Of a DNA stretch of 22,041 nt, positions 15,595-21,900 are shown piece by piece. Made by a program: the position numbers and the translations under genes. The notes below the pieces were generated by a model. That model was not told the DNA's origin. It ran no database searches and saw nothing but the letters and a program-made list of their open reading frames with translations. Position 1 is the first letter of the stretch; every line of letters starts with the position of its first letter. The stretch covers positions 1 through 22,041 of the IMG/VR virus record IMGVR_UViG_3300032297_000560. One strand, 5' to 3'. Origin of the DNA: a virus.

Positions 15595-16185
15595 ATGAAA
15601 AACTTCAAAGAATACCTATCTGAGTCGAAAAAACAGTACCCTTTTAAAATCAAGGTTGCTGGTGAATTCAGTAAAGATCAAGAAAAGACTCTAGAGTCTT
15701 TGCTAGATCGCTATGCTGTGACTAACTTTAAAAAATCTACAACAACGCCAGTTCAAGAATTGCCGTTAGATTTTCCGCAACTTAAAAATTGCGAAGTTCA
15801 TATCTATGAAGTAACGTTAGATTATCCTAGCACTCAATTTGAATTAACAGAATACCTAGCCACTGGTTTATCTGTTCATAAACAAAATTTAGTTGTCCGT
15901 CGTCCTGGCGAACCACTTGAAGAATATCAGCACCAAGAAGGCGAAAAGCGTGAAGGTGCTCTATTAGATGATCCTGATTACAAAGAAGCCGGTAGTCCTA
16001 AATTTGAAGATTACTATGGTGACAAGTATAACACCGGATTTGTCAAAGAACTAAATGATCTTCTCAAACTAGAGCGTAAAGCTCGTGGAGAACAAATCCC
16101 CACGGAAGGTGTTGCAAAATACAACACTGACTCCGATGCTAATACAACCGGCATCTTGAAGCAAGCCGAAGAAACAAGGAAATAA
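15595..16185 (+). CDS. Probable head-interior or capsid-associated protein with capsid-targeting-like N-terminus
   Basis: 196 residues, function not known. The first ten residues, MKNFKEYLSE, closely resemble the capsid-targeting sequence of T4 internal proteins (MKTYQEFIAE), which is cut by the gp21 prohead protease after a [L/I]xE motif. Here LSE precedes S11. The rest has an alpha/beta-looking domain (YPFKIKVAGEFSKDQEKTLESLLDRY, VHIYEVTLDYPS, LATGLSVHKQNLVVRRPGEP) and then an acidic, charged tail. It lies between the two terminase genes. Packaging into the head is inference from the N-terminus and location; a plain structural role is the alternative. Confidence 0.72.
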   Translation: MKNFKEYLSESKKQYPFKIKVAGEFSKDQEKTLESLLDRYAVTNFKKSTTTPVQELPLDFPQLKNCEVHIYEVTLDYPSTQFELTEYLATGLSVHKQNLVVRRPGEPLEEYQHQEGEKREGALLDDPDYKEAGSPKFEDYYGDKYNTGFVKELNDLLKLERKARGEQIPTEGVAKYNTDSDANTTGILKQAEETRK

Positions 16186-16187
16186 CC

Positions 16188-17459
16188 ATGCAAATGATTG
16201 ATGTAATGAAGCGTCTTGCTGAATTAGATGCAACTAATCCAAATATTGTAAAAGAGAGTCAACAGCCTGTTGAAGAATGTGGAATGATGCCTATGGAGAA
16301 ACCACATACTCCTGCTACAATGAATATCACAGCCAACAGCGGTGAAGAACTAGGCGACATGCTAAGTGCTCTTATGCAATTAGCTGGTGTACACAAAGTT
16401 GGTGATGAGCATATGGGCACAGAGCCAAAGCCAACAACGATGACTTCTGAGCCAAGTATGAGATCTGTGATTGACAAAATGCACGGCGACACAGAAATCG
16501 TTCACGGTGACGGCGAAGAAGAAACAGAAGAAGGCCTCGTTACAACTGTAGGCGGTGCCGCACTAGGTGCCAAGGCCGGAGAAGTAATTGGCAACATGAT
16601 TGCTCCTGGAGTCGGCGGTGCATTAGGCAGCGCACTTGGTGGTCTTGCTGGCGGTTATGCGGGCGCCAAAGTGGAAGAAACGGGCGACGAAGCTGGATGG
16701 TATGTTACACATGAAAAGCGCACTGGTGATCCAGATCGTGTTGCTGGCCCTTTTGCTGATCAACAAGAGGCGCAAGCATGGATTAACGATAATGTACCGT
16801 ATCCAGAAGAAGAACCTTACGGCACAACTGAAGTCGGTGAAAGTGACGCAGAAGAAACAGAAGAAGGTCTTGGTGGTGCAGTGGCCGGCGGCCTAATTGG
16901 TCGAGGTATTGGTATGGCAGTACCTGTTCCTGGTGCATCACTAGCTGGCGCTTACATTGGTAGTAAATTAGGCAGTGCAGCCACTGATGCAGCCGATGCA
17001 GTAAGCGATGATGACAAAGAAAAGCCAACAGAAACTGTTGACAATACGCCAACAGGTGTACGTGATATTCCTCCATTTAGCAAAGATGCTATGATTGATA
17101 AATCTAGACATAATCAAACACAGGCAGGATATCCCGGAGTAGGTGATAGAATGGATGGAGACCGTCCTAAAGCATTTGCCACAATGGAAGATCGACTAAT
17201 GGCTGAATACAAACAGTTCATCGGTGAGTCTGTAGAAGAAGTTGAAGAAGATGAAGATGTAGAAGAAGGCATCATGGACAAAGCCAAAGAATTCGGTAAG
17301 AAAGCTGTTAAAACAGCTGACAGAATTGTAACTGGTGGCGATAAAGAAGATCTAATTAAAGATCTACAGAAGAAAGCCGGAGTTGAACCAACTGGTAAAA
17401 AGCCAGAGTCAGCCAACGAAAGCATGGCAGATATTTTAAAACTATCTGGTCTAAGATAA
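16188..17459 (+). CDS. Acidic head-associated protein with two glycine-zipper segments, function unknown
   Basis: 423 residues. The N-terminus MQMIDVMKRLAE contains an LAE site that could be cut by a gp21-type protease. Residues 57-68 read DMLSALMQLAGV, and the last residues read SMADILKLSGLR, a related motif. Two hydrophobic G/A-rich segments (about residues 119-161 and 227-272, each preceded by ETEEG) have glycine-zipper spacing such as GGALGSALGGLAGG and could insert in membrane. Between them is a compact unit GWYVTHE...AGPFADQQEAQAWI. The C-terminal part is very acidic, then has a basic amphipathic helix (MDKAKEFGKKAVKTADRI). AAGGAA precedes the start by about eight bases. It may be a scaffold or an ejected internal protein; neither is proven. 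Confidence 0.72.
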   Translation: MQMIDVMKRLAELDATNPNIVKESQQPVEECGMMPMEKPHTPATMNITANSGEELGDMLSALMQLAGVHKVGDEHMGTEPKPTTMTSEPSMRSVIDKMHGDTEIVHGDGEEETEEGLVTTVGGAALGAKAGEVIGNMIAPGVGGALGSALGGLAGGYAGAKVEETGDEAGWYVTHEKRTGDPDRVAGPFADQQEAQAWINDNVPYPEEEPYGTTEVGESDAEETEEGLGGAVAGGLIGRGIGMAVPVPGASLAGAYIGSKLGSAATDAADAVSDDDKEKPTETVDNTPTGVRDIPPFSKDAMIDKSRHNQTQAGYPGVGDRMDGDRPKAFATMEDRLMAEYKQFIGESVEEVEEDEDVEEGIMDKAKEFGKKAVKTADRIVTGGDKEDLIKDLQKKAGVEPTGKKPESANESMADILKLSGLR

Positions 17460-17478
17460 TACATTAGGATGTAATCCA

Positions 17479-17505
17479 AATAGCCTCTTCGGAGGCTATT
17501 TTTTT
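17479..17505 (+). terminator. Rho-independent terminator with UUCG loop
   Basis: Nine-base perfect stem AATAGCCTC / GAGGCTATT closed by the stable loop TTCG, followed by a run of T. It ends the transcription unit starting at 13114. The next promoter motif begins two bases further on. Confidence 0.92.
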
Positions 17506-17506
17506 C

Positions 17507-17514
17507 ATTAAATA
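17507..17514 (+). promoter_or_regulatory. Candidate late promoter for large terminase (ATTAAATA)
   Basis: ATTAAATA ends four bases before the ATG at 17519, directly after a terminator, so the gene needs a new promoter. With T4 geometry transcription would start on the start codon. No ribosome site is present. Confidence 0.55.
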
Positions 17515-17518
17515 AAAT

Positions 17519-19105
17519 ATGGGATCAAAAAATTTAGACGGCAAACTGGTAAAAACTGCGCATTCAACGCAGAGGTATACCGAACAAGATATTGAAGACT
17601 TGATGAAGTGTCAAGATCTTGTCAATGGTCCTCACCACTTTTTAGATAACTTTTTCTACATTCAACACCCAGTTAAAGGTAAACTACGCTACGAGGCTTT
17701 TGAGTACCAACGTCGATTAATTGACAGTTATCACCAGCACAGATTTAACGTTAACTTATTACCACGACAAACAGGCAAGACTACTACAGCCGCAGGTTAT
17801 CTGTTGTGGTACGCTATGTTTATGCCAGACAGCACTATATTAATTGCGGCGCACAAATACACAGGCGCTCAGGAGATTATGAACCGTATTCGATATGCCT
17901 ATGAGCTTTGTCCTGATCATATTCGATGCGGTGTTACCAGTTACAATAAACAAAGTATAGAATTCGACAACGGTAGTCGTATCGTAGCACAGACAACTAC
18001 AGAAACTACAGGTCGTGGTATGAGCTTGTCAATGCTGTACGCTGACGAGTTTGCGTTTGTGGCACCTAATATTGCCAGTGAATTCTGGACTTCTATTTCG
18101 CCCACATTGGCCACAGGTGGTAAAGCTATTATTACCAGCACACCAAACAGCGACGAAGATCAGTTTGCTCAAATATGGCATGAAGCCAACAAACGATTTG
18201 ACGAGTTTGGCAATGAACAGACTACAGGAAAAAATGGATTCTTTCCGTTTAAAGCACATTGGACAGAGCATCCAGAGCGTGATGAAAAATGGGCAGAGAT
18301 AGAACGCAGTCGTATTGGAGAGGAACGTTTCCGCCGAGAACATGAATGCGAATTCTTGATCTTTGATGAAACATTGATCAATAGCATAGCCCTTTCAGAC
18401 ATGGTAGGCGGTGAGCCCATAATGAAAATGGGCCAGGTTCGGTGGTATAAAAAGATTGATCCAAAGTGTACCTATATTGTAGCACTAGACCCTAGTCTAG
18501 GCACAGGTGGCGACCCGGCAGCCATACAAATTCTCGAATTACCTACATTTGAACAGGTAGCTGAATGGCATCATAATCTTACACCTATACAAGGACAGAC
18601 TCGAATACTGCGGGATATCTGCAGATACATTGCCGATGAATGTTCAGCCAAAGGTTCGCAACCTAGCATATATTTCAGTGTTGAAAATAATGCAGTGGGA
18701 GAAGCCGCGCTGGTGTCTATCAGTGAAATCGGTGAAGAAACCATACCCGGATTATTTGTCAGCGAACCTATTAAAAAGGGACATGTACGACGCTTCCGTA
18801 AAGGATTTAACACCACACACTCTAGTAAAATTTCTGTTTGCGCCAAACTCAAACAACTCATTGAAGCTAAAACACTTAAAATACACAGTAAAAGTTTAAT
18901 CAGTGAATTAAAAACATTTGTGGCCAAAGGCATTAGTTTTGAAGGAAAAACTGGTAATCACGATGACTTAGTTAGCAGTCTATTGCTGGCATTACGTATG
19001 ATTATTCTTTTACAAGACTGGGATCCTGCAATTTATGAAAAAATGCGTGAAGAAAGTTACGATGATTTGATCATGCCCATGCCTATATACATCAGCAATT
19101 ATTAA
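17519..19105 (+). CDS. 17: Terminase large subunit, gp17-like packaging ATPase and nuclease
   Basis: Motor that drives DNA into the prohead and cuts the concatemer. The ATPase domain has Walker A LPRQTGKTT (residues 81-89), Walker B MLYADE with D176 and E177, and the coupling motif ITSTPN (205-210). The RNase H-like nuclease domain has D324 (VALDPSLG), E389 (SVEN) and D482/D483 (HDDLV). 528 residues against 610 in T4; the N- and C-terminal ends are shorter. The start at 17519 gives the conserved beginning before the KCQDLVNGPHHFLDNFFYIQHP region. It lies between a terminator and the 927-residue gene, and starts just after a TAAATA motif with no ribosome site. Confidence 0.96.
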   Translation: MGSKNLDGKLVKTAHSTQRYTEQDIEDLMKCQDLVNGPHHFLDNFFYIQHPVKGKLRYEAFEYQRRLIDSYHQHRFNVNLLPRQTGKTTTAAGYLLWYAMFMPDSTILIAAHKYTGAQEIMNRIRYAYELCPDHIRCGVTSYNKQSIEFDNGSRIVAQTTTETTGRGMSLSMLYADEFAFVAPNIASEFWTSISPTLATGGKAIITSTPNSDEDQFAQIWHEANKRFDEFGNEQTTGKNGFFPFKAHWTEHPERDEKWAEIERSRIGEERFRREHECEFLIFDETLINSIALSDMVGGEPIMKMGQVRWYKKIDPKCTYIVALDPSLGTGGDPAAIQILELPTFEQVAEWHHNLTPIQGQTRILRDICRYIADECSAKGSQPSIYFSVENNAVGEAALVSISEIGEETIPGLFVSEPIKKGHVRRFRKGFNTTHSSKISVCAKLKQLIEAKTLKIHSKSLISELKTFVAKGISFEGKTGNHDDLVSSLLLALRMIILLQDWDPAIYEKMREESYDDLIMPMPIYISNY

Positions 19106-19111
19106 TAAATA
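19104..19111 (+). promoter_or_regulatory. Candidate late promoter of the leaderless class (AATAAATA)
   Basis: AATAAATA overlaps the terminase stop codon and ends five bases before the ATG at 19117, so a start six bases after the motif is the A of ATG. The five bases between (ACAAA) hold no Shine-Dalgarno sequence. Confidence 0.55.
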
Positions 19112-19116
19112 ACAAA

Positions 19117-21900
19117 ATGCAAGCTATACAAATTATCAGCCAAGATTTATTCGACAAAGTGCGTAGTCGCTTTGAAAACCTAGAAATGGGCGACAGCACC
19201 GGTGCTGTGACCATTGACCCCAAAGAAGCAAGATTCTTTGATTTTGACTTTGTCTTAGAAGGTGCAGACCTTGGACGAGTAAGCGTCAGTCTTGGAGAAT
19301 TAGGCAGTCTAAAAGTTTTCTACAGTCAAGGTATTACAGAAAACAAAGATGACTTTGCCAAAAAAATATGGTATAGTTTTTTAAAAGAAATGCGTCTTTT
19401 TGCAATGCGTAGATTACTGCGCTTTGATACACGTGATATTGCTAAAACAAATTTAGAGCAAAAAGATTTTCAATATTTGGCCAGTAAAAGCCCCAAGGAA
19501 GAACCAATGTCTACAATGAACGAATCACGATGGAATCAAAAAAGCACTAAAAAGACTAGTCGTGCTGTTAAAGGAAAAACTGAAGTTATTGTTCGCCATG
19601 CAAAAGCAGTAGAAGAAACATATCCAGGCGCACGTAGTCAAAGTAAAAACATCAAGGCAATCTTTATTCAAAATGCCGATGGTGAACGCTTTAAGTATCC
19701 ATTCATTCATCCAGCTGGAGCATTTGCCATGGCTCAACACGTTGATCACGGTGGCGTTCCGCATGATCCAGCAGGCAAAGCTATCATTGAAATGAGTGAA
19801 CAAATTGCTCAACTACAAGAATTCAGTCGCCATGTTCGCCGCGCTACATTACACGACGATGCAATGAGTATCAGTGAAAAAGCCATGAGCAAGTTAAACG
19901 AACTCAAAGAGCGAGTAGCGGCATTGAGTAAAAGACATCACTATGAAAGTTGGATAGCAGAATTCAATGAAGGTTCAGACGACCTAATGACAGAACTAGA
20001 TGCTGTCACAATGGAAGACTACAAATCAAAATTTACTCAAACAAACTTTCAAGAAGAATTATCTAAATTTTTCCCCTTGCTACATAGAATCGTGGGCGAA
20101 GCCAACGCAGTTAATTTAGATGAGTTAATAAAAGAAAACGAAGAAGAGCAAGACATGGATCAAGACCAAGACATGGCTCCTGGCAATGTTGATCCTTCTG
20201 ATCAATTTAACAATTGGGCAGATTCTGTCGAAACAGGCACACTATCCAATGACCAAGCCGAAGATTTAAAACAAGAATTAGATGGAATGGAAACAGACAG
20301 TGAAGGTTTGCCTAAAATTGATCTAGGTACAGATGGTACTATTGCTGTAAGTTTTTTCCAAGATCACGGATTAGATAACAGCGATTTAGCGGCAGCATTA
20401 CAACAGGCTGCCGGCAGTGATTCCACACAAAACGCCTATCGTGTATTTGCTGATTGGGCTACATCACAGGGTCAAGAACAACTAGTACAGTTTTTAACTC
20501 CACAATTGTTCCAAGAACCTGAACCACAAGCTCCTGCTGTTGATCAAGAACAACAACCAGTTTCTGAAGCTCCGGAAGATTGGACTAGCTATAAGGTTGC
20601 TAAAATATTATTCGACAAAGGCATGAAGTATACTTCTGCCAAAGATGAAGGTCCGTTAATAAACGCAATCGGCGATGTTTTAGAAGAATTGGGTATGAAT
20701 AAGAAACAAGTAAGATATCTTATCAGATACGATGATGATTTCCTTGCTGACACACTAAGTGCTTTATATGACATGTCACAACAACAAGAAAATACAGACA
20801 TGGTTCCTCCTCTAAACGCAATGGAAAATAACCAGTTTGTTGTATGGTATATGATCGACGACGGCGAATGGGACGAGCACGGTACATTCGACAACGAAGC
20901 CGCCGCCGATGCGTATATTCAACAACTTGCGGCCAAAGGTTATGACGACGATAACTTTGAAGTGCTCAAACCTGGTCAACACCCTGACGATGACTATGCA
21001 TACACTGGGTCTCAAGAAAACACAGACATGGTTCCTCCTCCTGGCGCAATGAGCGAAAGTGAAGAGTCAGTTGAAGAAATGGTACACAGAATTGTACATC
21101 AACACTTCAATGAAGACAACCCCAACGGTGGCCCATTCCCTAAAGGAGAAGAAGGCATTGCCATAGAAGTTAAAACAGAAGTTGAAGACGTGCATGGCGA
21201 AGAAGCTGCCTTGGCTGCTGAAGAAATGGCTCGTGCTGAAATGGCAAAATGTGCGGCAGAATGGGATGAAAAACACAACGGTGGTGGCCAAGATGGTCTT
21301 TCCAGAATACGAGAAATTATTTCTAAAATGGAAAAAGGTATGGAAGGTATTGGGGATCAAGGTCATGGTGGTAAAGACTTTAACAAAAATATCATGCCAG
21401 CTGAAGGACAGGGCGATCTTGCTACAGCACTTAGTAAACTCAGCGGTAATTGGAGCGGATGGCACAAAGAAGAAGACATGTCAACACCCGAGGTTGATCA
21501 TTACGAATATGATGACGGTGAAGGCGGCTACTACGGCCGTGGAACTATCGAACACAATTTGAAGACCGGAGAAGTTAAAGTTGAATATCATGACAGCGAA
21601 AATGATATGGATGTCGATGGCACCTTTAAGAACATGGGCGATGCTATGCGAGCACTACGTGGCGACCTTGGCGTTAATCACGGTGGTAAAGCACCTAACT
21701 TTGACAGACTAGGTCACCGTAAACAACATGGTCCAGATGACCTACGTAAAACAGATAGAACTGGGCGTAAAGGCTCATTAGCCGGCGGACCTACTAATAG
21801 TTTAAAACGTGATATTGAATTCAACAAAGGTAAACACGGTCCAAAAGGACCTTTACCAGAAATGGCTGAGATTTTACGTTTAGCTGGATTGGCAAAATAA
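19117..21900 (+). CDS. Large acidic multidomain protein, probable virion component, function unknown
   Basis: 927 residues. The N-terminal domain (about 1-125) is basic and aromatic (KKIWYSFLKEMRLFAMRRLLRFDTRD). A second region (about 130-340) has H-rich loops and helices (IHPAGAFAMAQHVDHGG). From about residue 345 it is very acidic with short domains separated by Q/E/P linkers, including SYKVAKILFDKGMKYTSAKDEG and VVWYMIDDGEWDEHGTFDN. The peptide QENTDMVPP occurs twice, flanking that last domain. A HRIVHQHFNEDNPNGGPFPKGEEGI unit and a GYYGRGTIEHN unit follow. It ends LPEMAEILRLAGLAK, like the end of the 423-residue protein; LPE fits a prohead-protease site. A scaffold or packaged protein is possible; I cannot name the family. 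Confidence 0.75.
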   Translation: MQAIQIISQDLFDKVRSRFENLEMGDSTGAVTIDPKEARFFDFDFVLEGADLGRVSVSLGELGSLKVFYSQGITENKDDFAKKIWYSFLKEMRLFAMRRLLRFDTRDIAKTNLEQKDFQYLASKSPKEEPMSTMNESRWNQKSTKKTSRAVKGKTEVIVRHAKAVEETYPGARSQSKNIKAIFIQNADGERFKYPFIHPAGAFAMAQHVDHGGVPHDPAGKAIIEMSEQIAQLQEFSRHVRRATLHDDAMSISEKAMSKLNELKERVAALSKRHHYESWIAEFNEGSDDLMTELDAVTMEDYKSKFTQTNFQEELSKFFPLLHRIVGEANAVNLDELIKENEEEQDMDQDQDMAPGNVDPSDQFNNWADSVETGTLSNDQAEDLKQELDGMETDSEGLPKIDLGTDGTIAVSFFQDHGLDNSDLAAALQQAAGSDSTQNAYRVFADWATSQGQEQLVQFLTPQLFQEPEPQAPAVDQEQQPVSEAPEDWTSYKVAKILFDKGMKYTSAKDEGPLINAIGDVLEELGMNKKQVRYLIRYDDDFLADTLSALYDMSQQQENTDMVPPLNAMENNQFVVWYMIDDGEWDEHGTFDNEAAADAYIQQLAAKGYDDDNFEVLKPGQHPDDDYAYTGSQENTDMVPPPGAMSESEESVEEMVHRIVHQHFNEDNPNGGPFPKGEEGIAIEVKTEVEDVHGEEAALAAEEMARAEMAKCAAEWDEKHNGGGQDGLSRIREIISKMEKGMEGIGDQGHGGKDFNKNIMPAEGQGDLATALSKLSGNWSGWHKEEDMSTPEVDHYEYDDGEGGYYGRGTIEHNLKTGEVKVEYHDSENDMDVDGTFKNMGDAMRALRGDLGVNHGGKAPNFDRLGHRKQHGPDDLRKTDRTGRKGSLAGGPTNSLKRDIEFNKGKHGPKGPLPEMAEILRLAGLAK
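20785..21051 (+). repeat. Direct repeat flanking a small domain inside the 927-residue gene
   Basis: The 39-base copies at 20785-20823 and 21013-21051 both encode QENTDMVPPxxAM. Their first 27 bases differ at one position. The repeat period is 228 bases, and the unit between them encodes a W/Y-rich domain of about 63 residues, so the domain looks like an in-frame cassette. Confidence 0.8.

Follow-up and report, generated by a model that had tools for sequence, protein, structure and literature searches.

In phage lambda, gpC and gpNu3 have a C-terminal scaffold domain in common through an in-frame overlapping gene, and this domain targets the protease into the procapsid. Herpesvirus UL26 and UL26.5 likewise share a tail through in-frame gene overlap, with a protease site ahead of it. 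The 25 C-terminal residues of the herpesvirus scaffold bind the major capsid protein; the C-terminal hook of the P22 scaffold contacts coat and portal, and co-assembly with this scaffold is probable for the P22 ejection proteins (PMC12005531). The capsid targeting sequence (CTS) of T4 is N-terminal, about 10 residues long, and removed by gp21 (PMC9958956, PMC5694885). The sorting of proteins into the scaffold core has been called mysterious even in T4 (PMC9958956). Among jumbo phages, the 121Q-like phAPEC6 has a proteinaceous inner body of unidentified composition, and the inner-body proteins of 121Q-type phages are unidentified (PMC7247149). Here, we analysed a stretch of 22,041 nucleotides (the window) from IMG/VR record IMGVR_UViG_3300032297_000560, which is part of a jumbo T4-related myophage whose source is described as a giant freshwater phage. 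In the window, two proteins of 423 and 927 residues flank the large terminase (TerL) and end in the same short peptide, the tag. The key new result, drawn from sequence comparison, is that this peptide also ends the predicted head scaffold of related phages.

As a short peptide on otherwise different, putative internal head proteins, the tag is similar to the CTS of T4 IPII and IPIII, which places its bearers in the scaffold core. Unlike the CTS, it is C-terminal or internal, is not linked to a cleavage site in the putative cargo, and resembles the scaffold's own tail, whereas the tail of T4 gp22 is not common to other T4 proteins. The likeness to herpesvirus UL26/UL26.5 lies in a scaffold C-terminal tail that is borne by two products, there the scaffold and the protease precursor, and the scaffolds described below have the herpesvirus-like trait of a conserved C-terminal tail following a candidate protease site, at which cleavage is predicted. 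However, unrelated genes here bear separately evolving copies of the tag, and capsid-protein binding is suggested only by analogy. The lambda proteins share a whole domain, in contrast to the 12-residue motif found here. The P22 hook is a helix-turn-helix and differs from the tag in sequence and length, and no hook copy is known from the P22 ejection proteins.

Two proteins flanking TerL end in the same peptide

The window encodes 20 proteins, among them tail sheath, tube, head closure (phrog_218), a possible small terminase, a 196-residue head protein, the 423-residue protein, TerL, and the 927-residue protein; all window features located below lie on the + strand. The 423-residue protein (16188..17459), encoded at the 5′ flank of TerL, belongs to a family of acidic head/virion proteins and ends in ESMADILKLSGLR, with the tag MADILKLSGL (17424..17453) followed by R and the stop codon. 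TerL (17519..19105; Pfam Terminase_6N/6C) lies between the two tagged genes. The 927-residue protein (19117..21900) comprises a conserved N-domain, a long variable region, and the C-terminal tag, ending in PLPEMAEILRLAGLAK; here the tag, MAEILRLAGL (21862..21891), is followed by AK and the stop codon. The 423-residue protein also holds an internal copy, LSALMQLAGV (16362..16391), which is the conserved copy of its family, and a weaker fourth copy at its N-end, IDVMKRLAEL (16197..16226), which resembles the scaffold N-end in two relatives. The initial annotation, which had noted two tagged proteins around TerL and a third, internal copy, was thus correct in this respect.

The pattern [ML]xxILxL[AS]GL has exactly two matches in the window proteins, each at a C-end, whereas shuffled window proteins gave a mean of 0.0003 matches and two C-terminal copies in 0 of 3000 runs. 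The two C-terminal copies are identical at only 20 of 30 bases and show synonymous differences, indicating that the peptide has been kept and the DNA has not; recent duplication of a gene end as the origin of the tag was rejected on the same observation. DNA-level searches with a guessed exact tag pattern and with a degenerate one gave few matches.

Relatives of the 927-residue protein occur in PA5oct and its kin, Phosso, and Vibrio phage 2.275, and many close ones are present in IMG/VR. The strict motif lies within 8 residues of the end in 70 of 94 distinct relative C-ends (shuffle mean 0.045), and slightly relaxed letters raise the count to 81. The sequence ahead of the tag has diverged: position entropy stays at ~3.7 bits until the tag and drops in its core to 0.0 (L), 0.4 (G), 0.55 (I), and ~1 (A/S), and a terminal lysine is present in 69 of the 81 tagged relatives. 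The frequency of the motif at C-ends, which the initial annotation had proposed to check, is therefore far above chance in the window and in the relatives. The 423 family conserves its internal copy (LxxI[ML]xLAG type, LxxIMxLAG[VM]), found in 64 of 71 distinct relatives and at a similar position in RaK2, 121Q, Vibrio 2.275, and Phosso. The motif is thus not strictly bound to the C-terminus.

The tag of the 927-residue protein is abutted on its 5′ side by LPE (21853..21861), a candidate gp21-type cleavage site, as originally noted. Its interpretation as a prohead-protease site in cargo was not supported by the relatives: L/I-x-E occurs within 15 residues before the tag in 10 of the 81 tagged 927-family relatives, compared with about 11 in control windows. 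Maturation cleavage between LPE and M as a general trait of tagged cargo was therefore rejected, and the LPE rule probably holds only for a few close relatives.

The predicted scaffold of related phages ends in the tag

A motif scan of long relative contigs revealed a third tagged protein of 360-369 residues in 5 of 6 contigs. Its gene is located between a Peptidase_S77/gp21-type protease (PF03420) and Gp23 (PF07068), after the gp20 portal (PF07230), which is the position of the gp22 scaffold, and its counterpart in 121Q is annotated as scaffolding (T4 gp22-like). Compared with named scaffold families, the sequence has no Pfam match, and its PHROG match, phrog_10922, is listed as 'unknown function'. 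Judged by gene order, the gene between the protease and gp23 encodes the predicted gp22-type head scaffold of this phage group.

The C-terminus of the scaffold, VGLDNILDIRKLAGLK, is near-invariant in 77 complete IMG/VR relatives; among the first five aligned, a 13-residue block downstream of a variable linker is invariant. In the AlphaFold2 model, a long helical rod is followed by a disordered linker (316-348) and then by a short helix (349-356) corresponding to the tag; the model is indicative only, with a mean predicted local distance difference test score of 69 and low values in the tag region. About 30 residues before the C-end, after the variable linker, nearly all scaffolds contain a conserved L-x-E↓[SGA] together with VTG[ND]R (TG[NDK]R in a broader form), and this position is a good candidate for a gp21-type cleavage site. 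In one 103-kb relative, the scaffold, 423-family, and 927-family genes are all tagged.

The scaffold tail recurs in isolated jumbo phages

Homologous scaffolds with diverged tag ends are present in phages of the PA5oct, RaK2, 121Q, GAP32, Atu_ph07, Phosso, XacN1, SCTP-2, and Vibrio 2.275 types. Isolated jumbo phages with scaffolds that are 27-41% identical have the scaffold ends VEELRRLAGIK (PA5oct), INDLKRLAGIKK (Atu_ph07), IHELRRLAGIEK (Phosso), LEELSILSGIIKK (RaK2), and LKELDVLSGINKK (121Q). For each genome, we compared all 13-residue windows of all proteins with the final 13 residues of the scaffold, and the C-ends of all other proteins served as control queries. In 9 of 10 genomes, a member of the 423 or 927 family came out among the top three of about 90-700 proteins. 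The combined p, about 1e-8, is optimistic, because the five close contigs lack independence and the choice of families followed knowledge of the motif. Taken singly, the distant isolates gave p values of 0.013 (PA5oct), 0.009 (RaK2), 0.002 (Vibrio 2.275), 0.003 (Atu_ph07, target picked by motif), and 0.11 (121Q). The matched peptides in Vibrio 2.275 are DLDRLTKIAGIRK in the scaffold and DLDRLGKLTGLTE in the 423 homologue. In T4 and S-PM2, used as negative controls, the scaffold tails are not common to other proteins of those phages.

Phosso provided a partial out-of-sample check, since its scaffold tail was known beforehand and the genes beside TerL were examined only afterwards. The protein encoded 3′ of TerL ends exactly in EHIARLRKLAGI, and the one encoded 5′ of TerL contains ELHRMLDLAGV. 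The Phosso genes at L491 5463-6677 and L492 1476-3299, both annotated as hypothetical proteins, carry the motif, and the 607-residue Phosso gp460 contains ESVDAMLKLAGV and is a further cargo candidate. In Atu_ph07, the Nudix hydrolase gp257 (L431 1574-2020) starts with MNIDKLKKLAGIKK, which is the best match to the scaffold tail in the part of the genome searched and beats 100 permuted tails; gp257 is possibly an enzyme addressed to the head.

According to the GenBank notes of PA5oct, electrospray ionization tandem mass spectrometry (ESI-MS/MS) detected gp282, gp281, gp279, and gp278 (encoded around TerL), gp249, portal, protease, and major capsid protein in virions, and the scaffold gp330 and TerL bear no such mark. 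Two scaffold peptides were detected in phAPEC6 virions (PMC7247149). The 423-family counterparts, homologous or positional, are PA5oct gp281, RaK2 ORF050, and 121Q gp560; the latter two are annotated as structural and were assigned to the family by N-terminal pattern and gene layout. The 121Q gp560 protein is also encoded by Sharanji, a phage of this group whose host is E. coli K-12 MG1655. The virion protein gp278 is homologous to the N-domain of the 927-residue protein. The tag is common to the 423 and 927 families and to PA5oct gp281, with two copies (INDILRLAGV at the N-end and LDEISKLAGI inside), and gp249 (L342 8221-8847), with one (IDRIKKLAGI). For both PA5oct proteins, presence in the virion is documented; we infer that they and the other tagged counterparts lie inside the head. 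The N-end of gp249, KIKLEQILKEQ, also resembles that of the scaffold gp330, VKFEHILNEQ, and scaffold and cargo may have signals in common in their N-terminal propeptides as well.

The tag as a probable docking element of the prohead core

The tag follows the pattern hydrophobic-x-x-I-x-[KR]-L-[AS]-G-[LI] with a lysine at the end, and is a predicted amphipathic helix with a glycine cap, as would suit a short linear docking element. We consider it probable, with moderate confidence, that the tag is the C-terminal docking helix of the scaffold and that internal head proteins have the same element, through which they enter the prohead core. The best reading remains the one first proposed, a docking or packaging tag for head cargo, strengthened by the same peptide ending the relatives' scaffold and stripped of its prohead-protease part. 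In the proposed mechanism, internal head proteins would carry the scaffold-tail element at the C-end or internally, and a shared peptide would imply a shared receptor, so that scaffold tail and cargo tag would dock on one prohead partner and the cargo would be built into the core. To judge from the P22 and herpesvirus scaffold tails, this partner would belong to the prohead, the coat protein gp23 and the portal being the likeliest candidates. During maturation, the scaffold tail would be cut off at the conserved L-x-E site, freeing the rod from the hook, while the cargo would keep its tag.

In addition to the optimistic combined p value, several observations weigh against the docking function. 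The window stops short of its own scaffold gene, and the 103-kb relative is the best proxy. In 121Q, the target ranks just 40th (p 0.11), and in GAP32 the 423 homologue, which has DDDFDMSRMSSLAGI, does not come up among the top six matches to the tail of the scaffold. At the C-terminus, the 423 family carries the tag only sporadically (in about 9 of 74 distinct relatives), and the internal copy conserved in this family may form the end of a folded beta-alpha unit, in which a helix with a glycine cap could have a structural cause. In PA5oct, RaK2, 121Q, GAP32, and Vibrio 2.275, a short, untagged gene lies 3′ of TerL, and the 863-residue product of the Atu_ph07 gene also lacks the tag, suggesting that in this family the tag goes mainly with the long extension. 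Moreover, PA5oct gp278 is untagged yet found in the virion; thus, its N-domain needs no tag.

Among the alternatives, one that we regard as improbable is docking of the prohead protease at the tag, by which scaffold and internal proteins would recruit gp21 for packaging and substrate finding. The scaffold tail does lie near the conserved L-x-E site, and T4 gp21 digests core proteins (PMC9958956). However, L/I-x-E is not enriched near the tag in tagged 927-family proteins, and gp21-type proteases are known to recognise short local motifs at their cleavage sites, with no docking tag described (PMC5694885). Self-association of tags, which would hold scaffold and internal proteins together within the core with no separate receptor, appears just as improbable: an amphipathic helix and several copies in one protein are compatible with it, whereas the near-invariance of the scaffold tail points to a partner that is folded and evolves slowly. 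Less probable still is convergence on an amphipathic helix with a glycine cap, a pattern without common function. Some matches are probably in folded domains (the PA5oct ATPase gp149 and a helicase-like protein in contig G002), and the internal 423-family copy, following a conserved pattern, could be a strand plus helix; on the other hand, the density at C-ends is far above chance, the core is invariant in divergent surroundings, T4 and S-PM2 show no enrichment, and the Phosso check was positive. A C-terminal degron, or a tag for proteolysis by a protease of host or phage origin, would fit a short hydrophobic C-end on a scaffold that presumably must disappear, but is very improbable given that the motif is also internal and N-terminal in virion proteins (PA5oct gp281 and gp249).

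Extending the proposed docking of tagged proteins in the prohead core, we tentatively propose, as a possibility held with less confidence than docking itself, that PA5oct/RaK2/121Q-type jumbo phages have a general head-entry code. A copy of the scaffold tail, C-terminal or internal, would mark proteins for the head and inner body, possibly including enzymes such as the Nudix hydrolase of Atu_ph07 with MNIDKLKKLAGIKK, and the TerL-flanking genes would be exchangeable cargo carriers. More generally, a short tag common to scaffold and cargo would allow candidate inner proteins to be named from sequence and would make it simple to load foreign proteins into very large phage heads, and the docking model offers a testable account of how these phages select their head contents.

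Other features of the locus and its relatives

In their variable regions, 423- and 927-family proteins have exchanged modules in common, with a match in 42 of 74 members (e.g., 72% over 79 residues; example loci L132:8995-9942 and L177:11550-13799), as if both TerL-flanking genes drew on a common pool of cargo domains. Modules of the two genes at one locus at first seemed to exclude each other (0 of 213), but this idea was dropped: among loci with both genes, the count is 1 versus 2.3 expected (P 0.31). For the fold of the N-domain of the 927-residue protein, the PDB gave no match with E below 0.001, and the BFVD matches were phage proteins only.

The neighbour of the 423-residue gene encodes the 196-residue head protein (15595..16185), which matches phrog_14802 (virion structural) and, weakly, phrog_2667 (internal head protein). 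Its N-terminus (15595-15627), MKNFKEYLSE↓S, resembles the T4 CTS, and a similar N-end pattern is found in 87 distinct relatives; a T4-kind N-terminal signal and the C-terminal tag may therefore coexist in one phage. Two glycine-zipper-like stretches of the 423-residue protein, at approximately 16530-16680 and 16870-17040, have weak matches to Pfam and to tape-measure PHROGs, and could mean membrane contact or ejection. Outside the head cluster, in a tail/fibre-like cluster of contig G002, a pair of genes (L233:9587-9817 / L233:16897-17202) encodes one small protein with the C-end LDHIKKLAGIR and another with MARMKKMAGL near its C-end.

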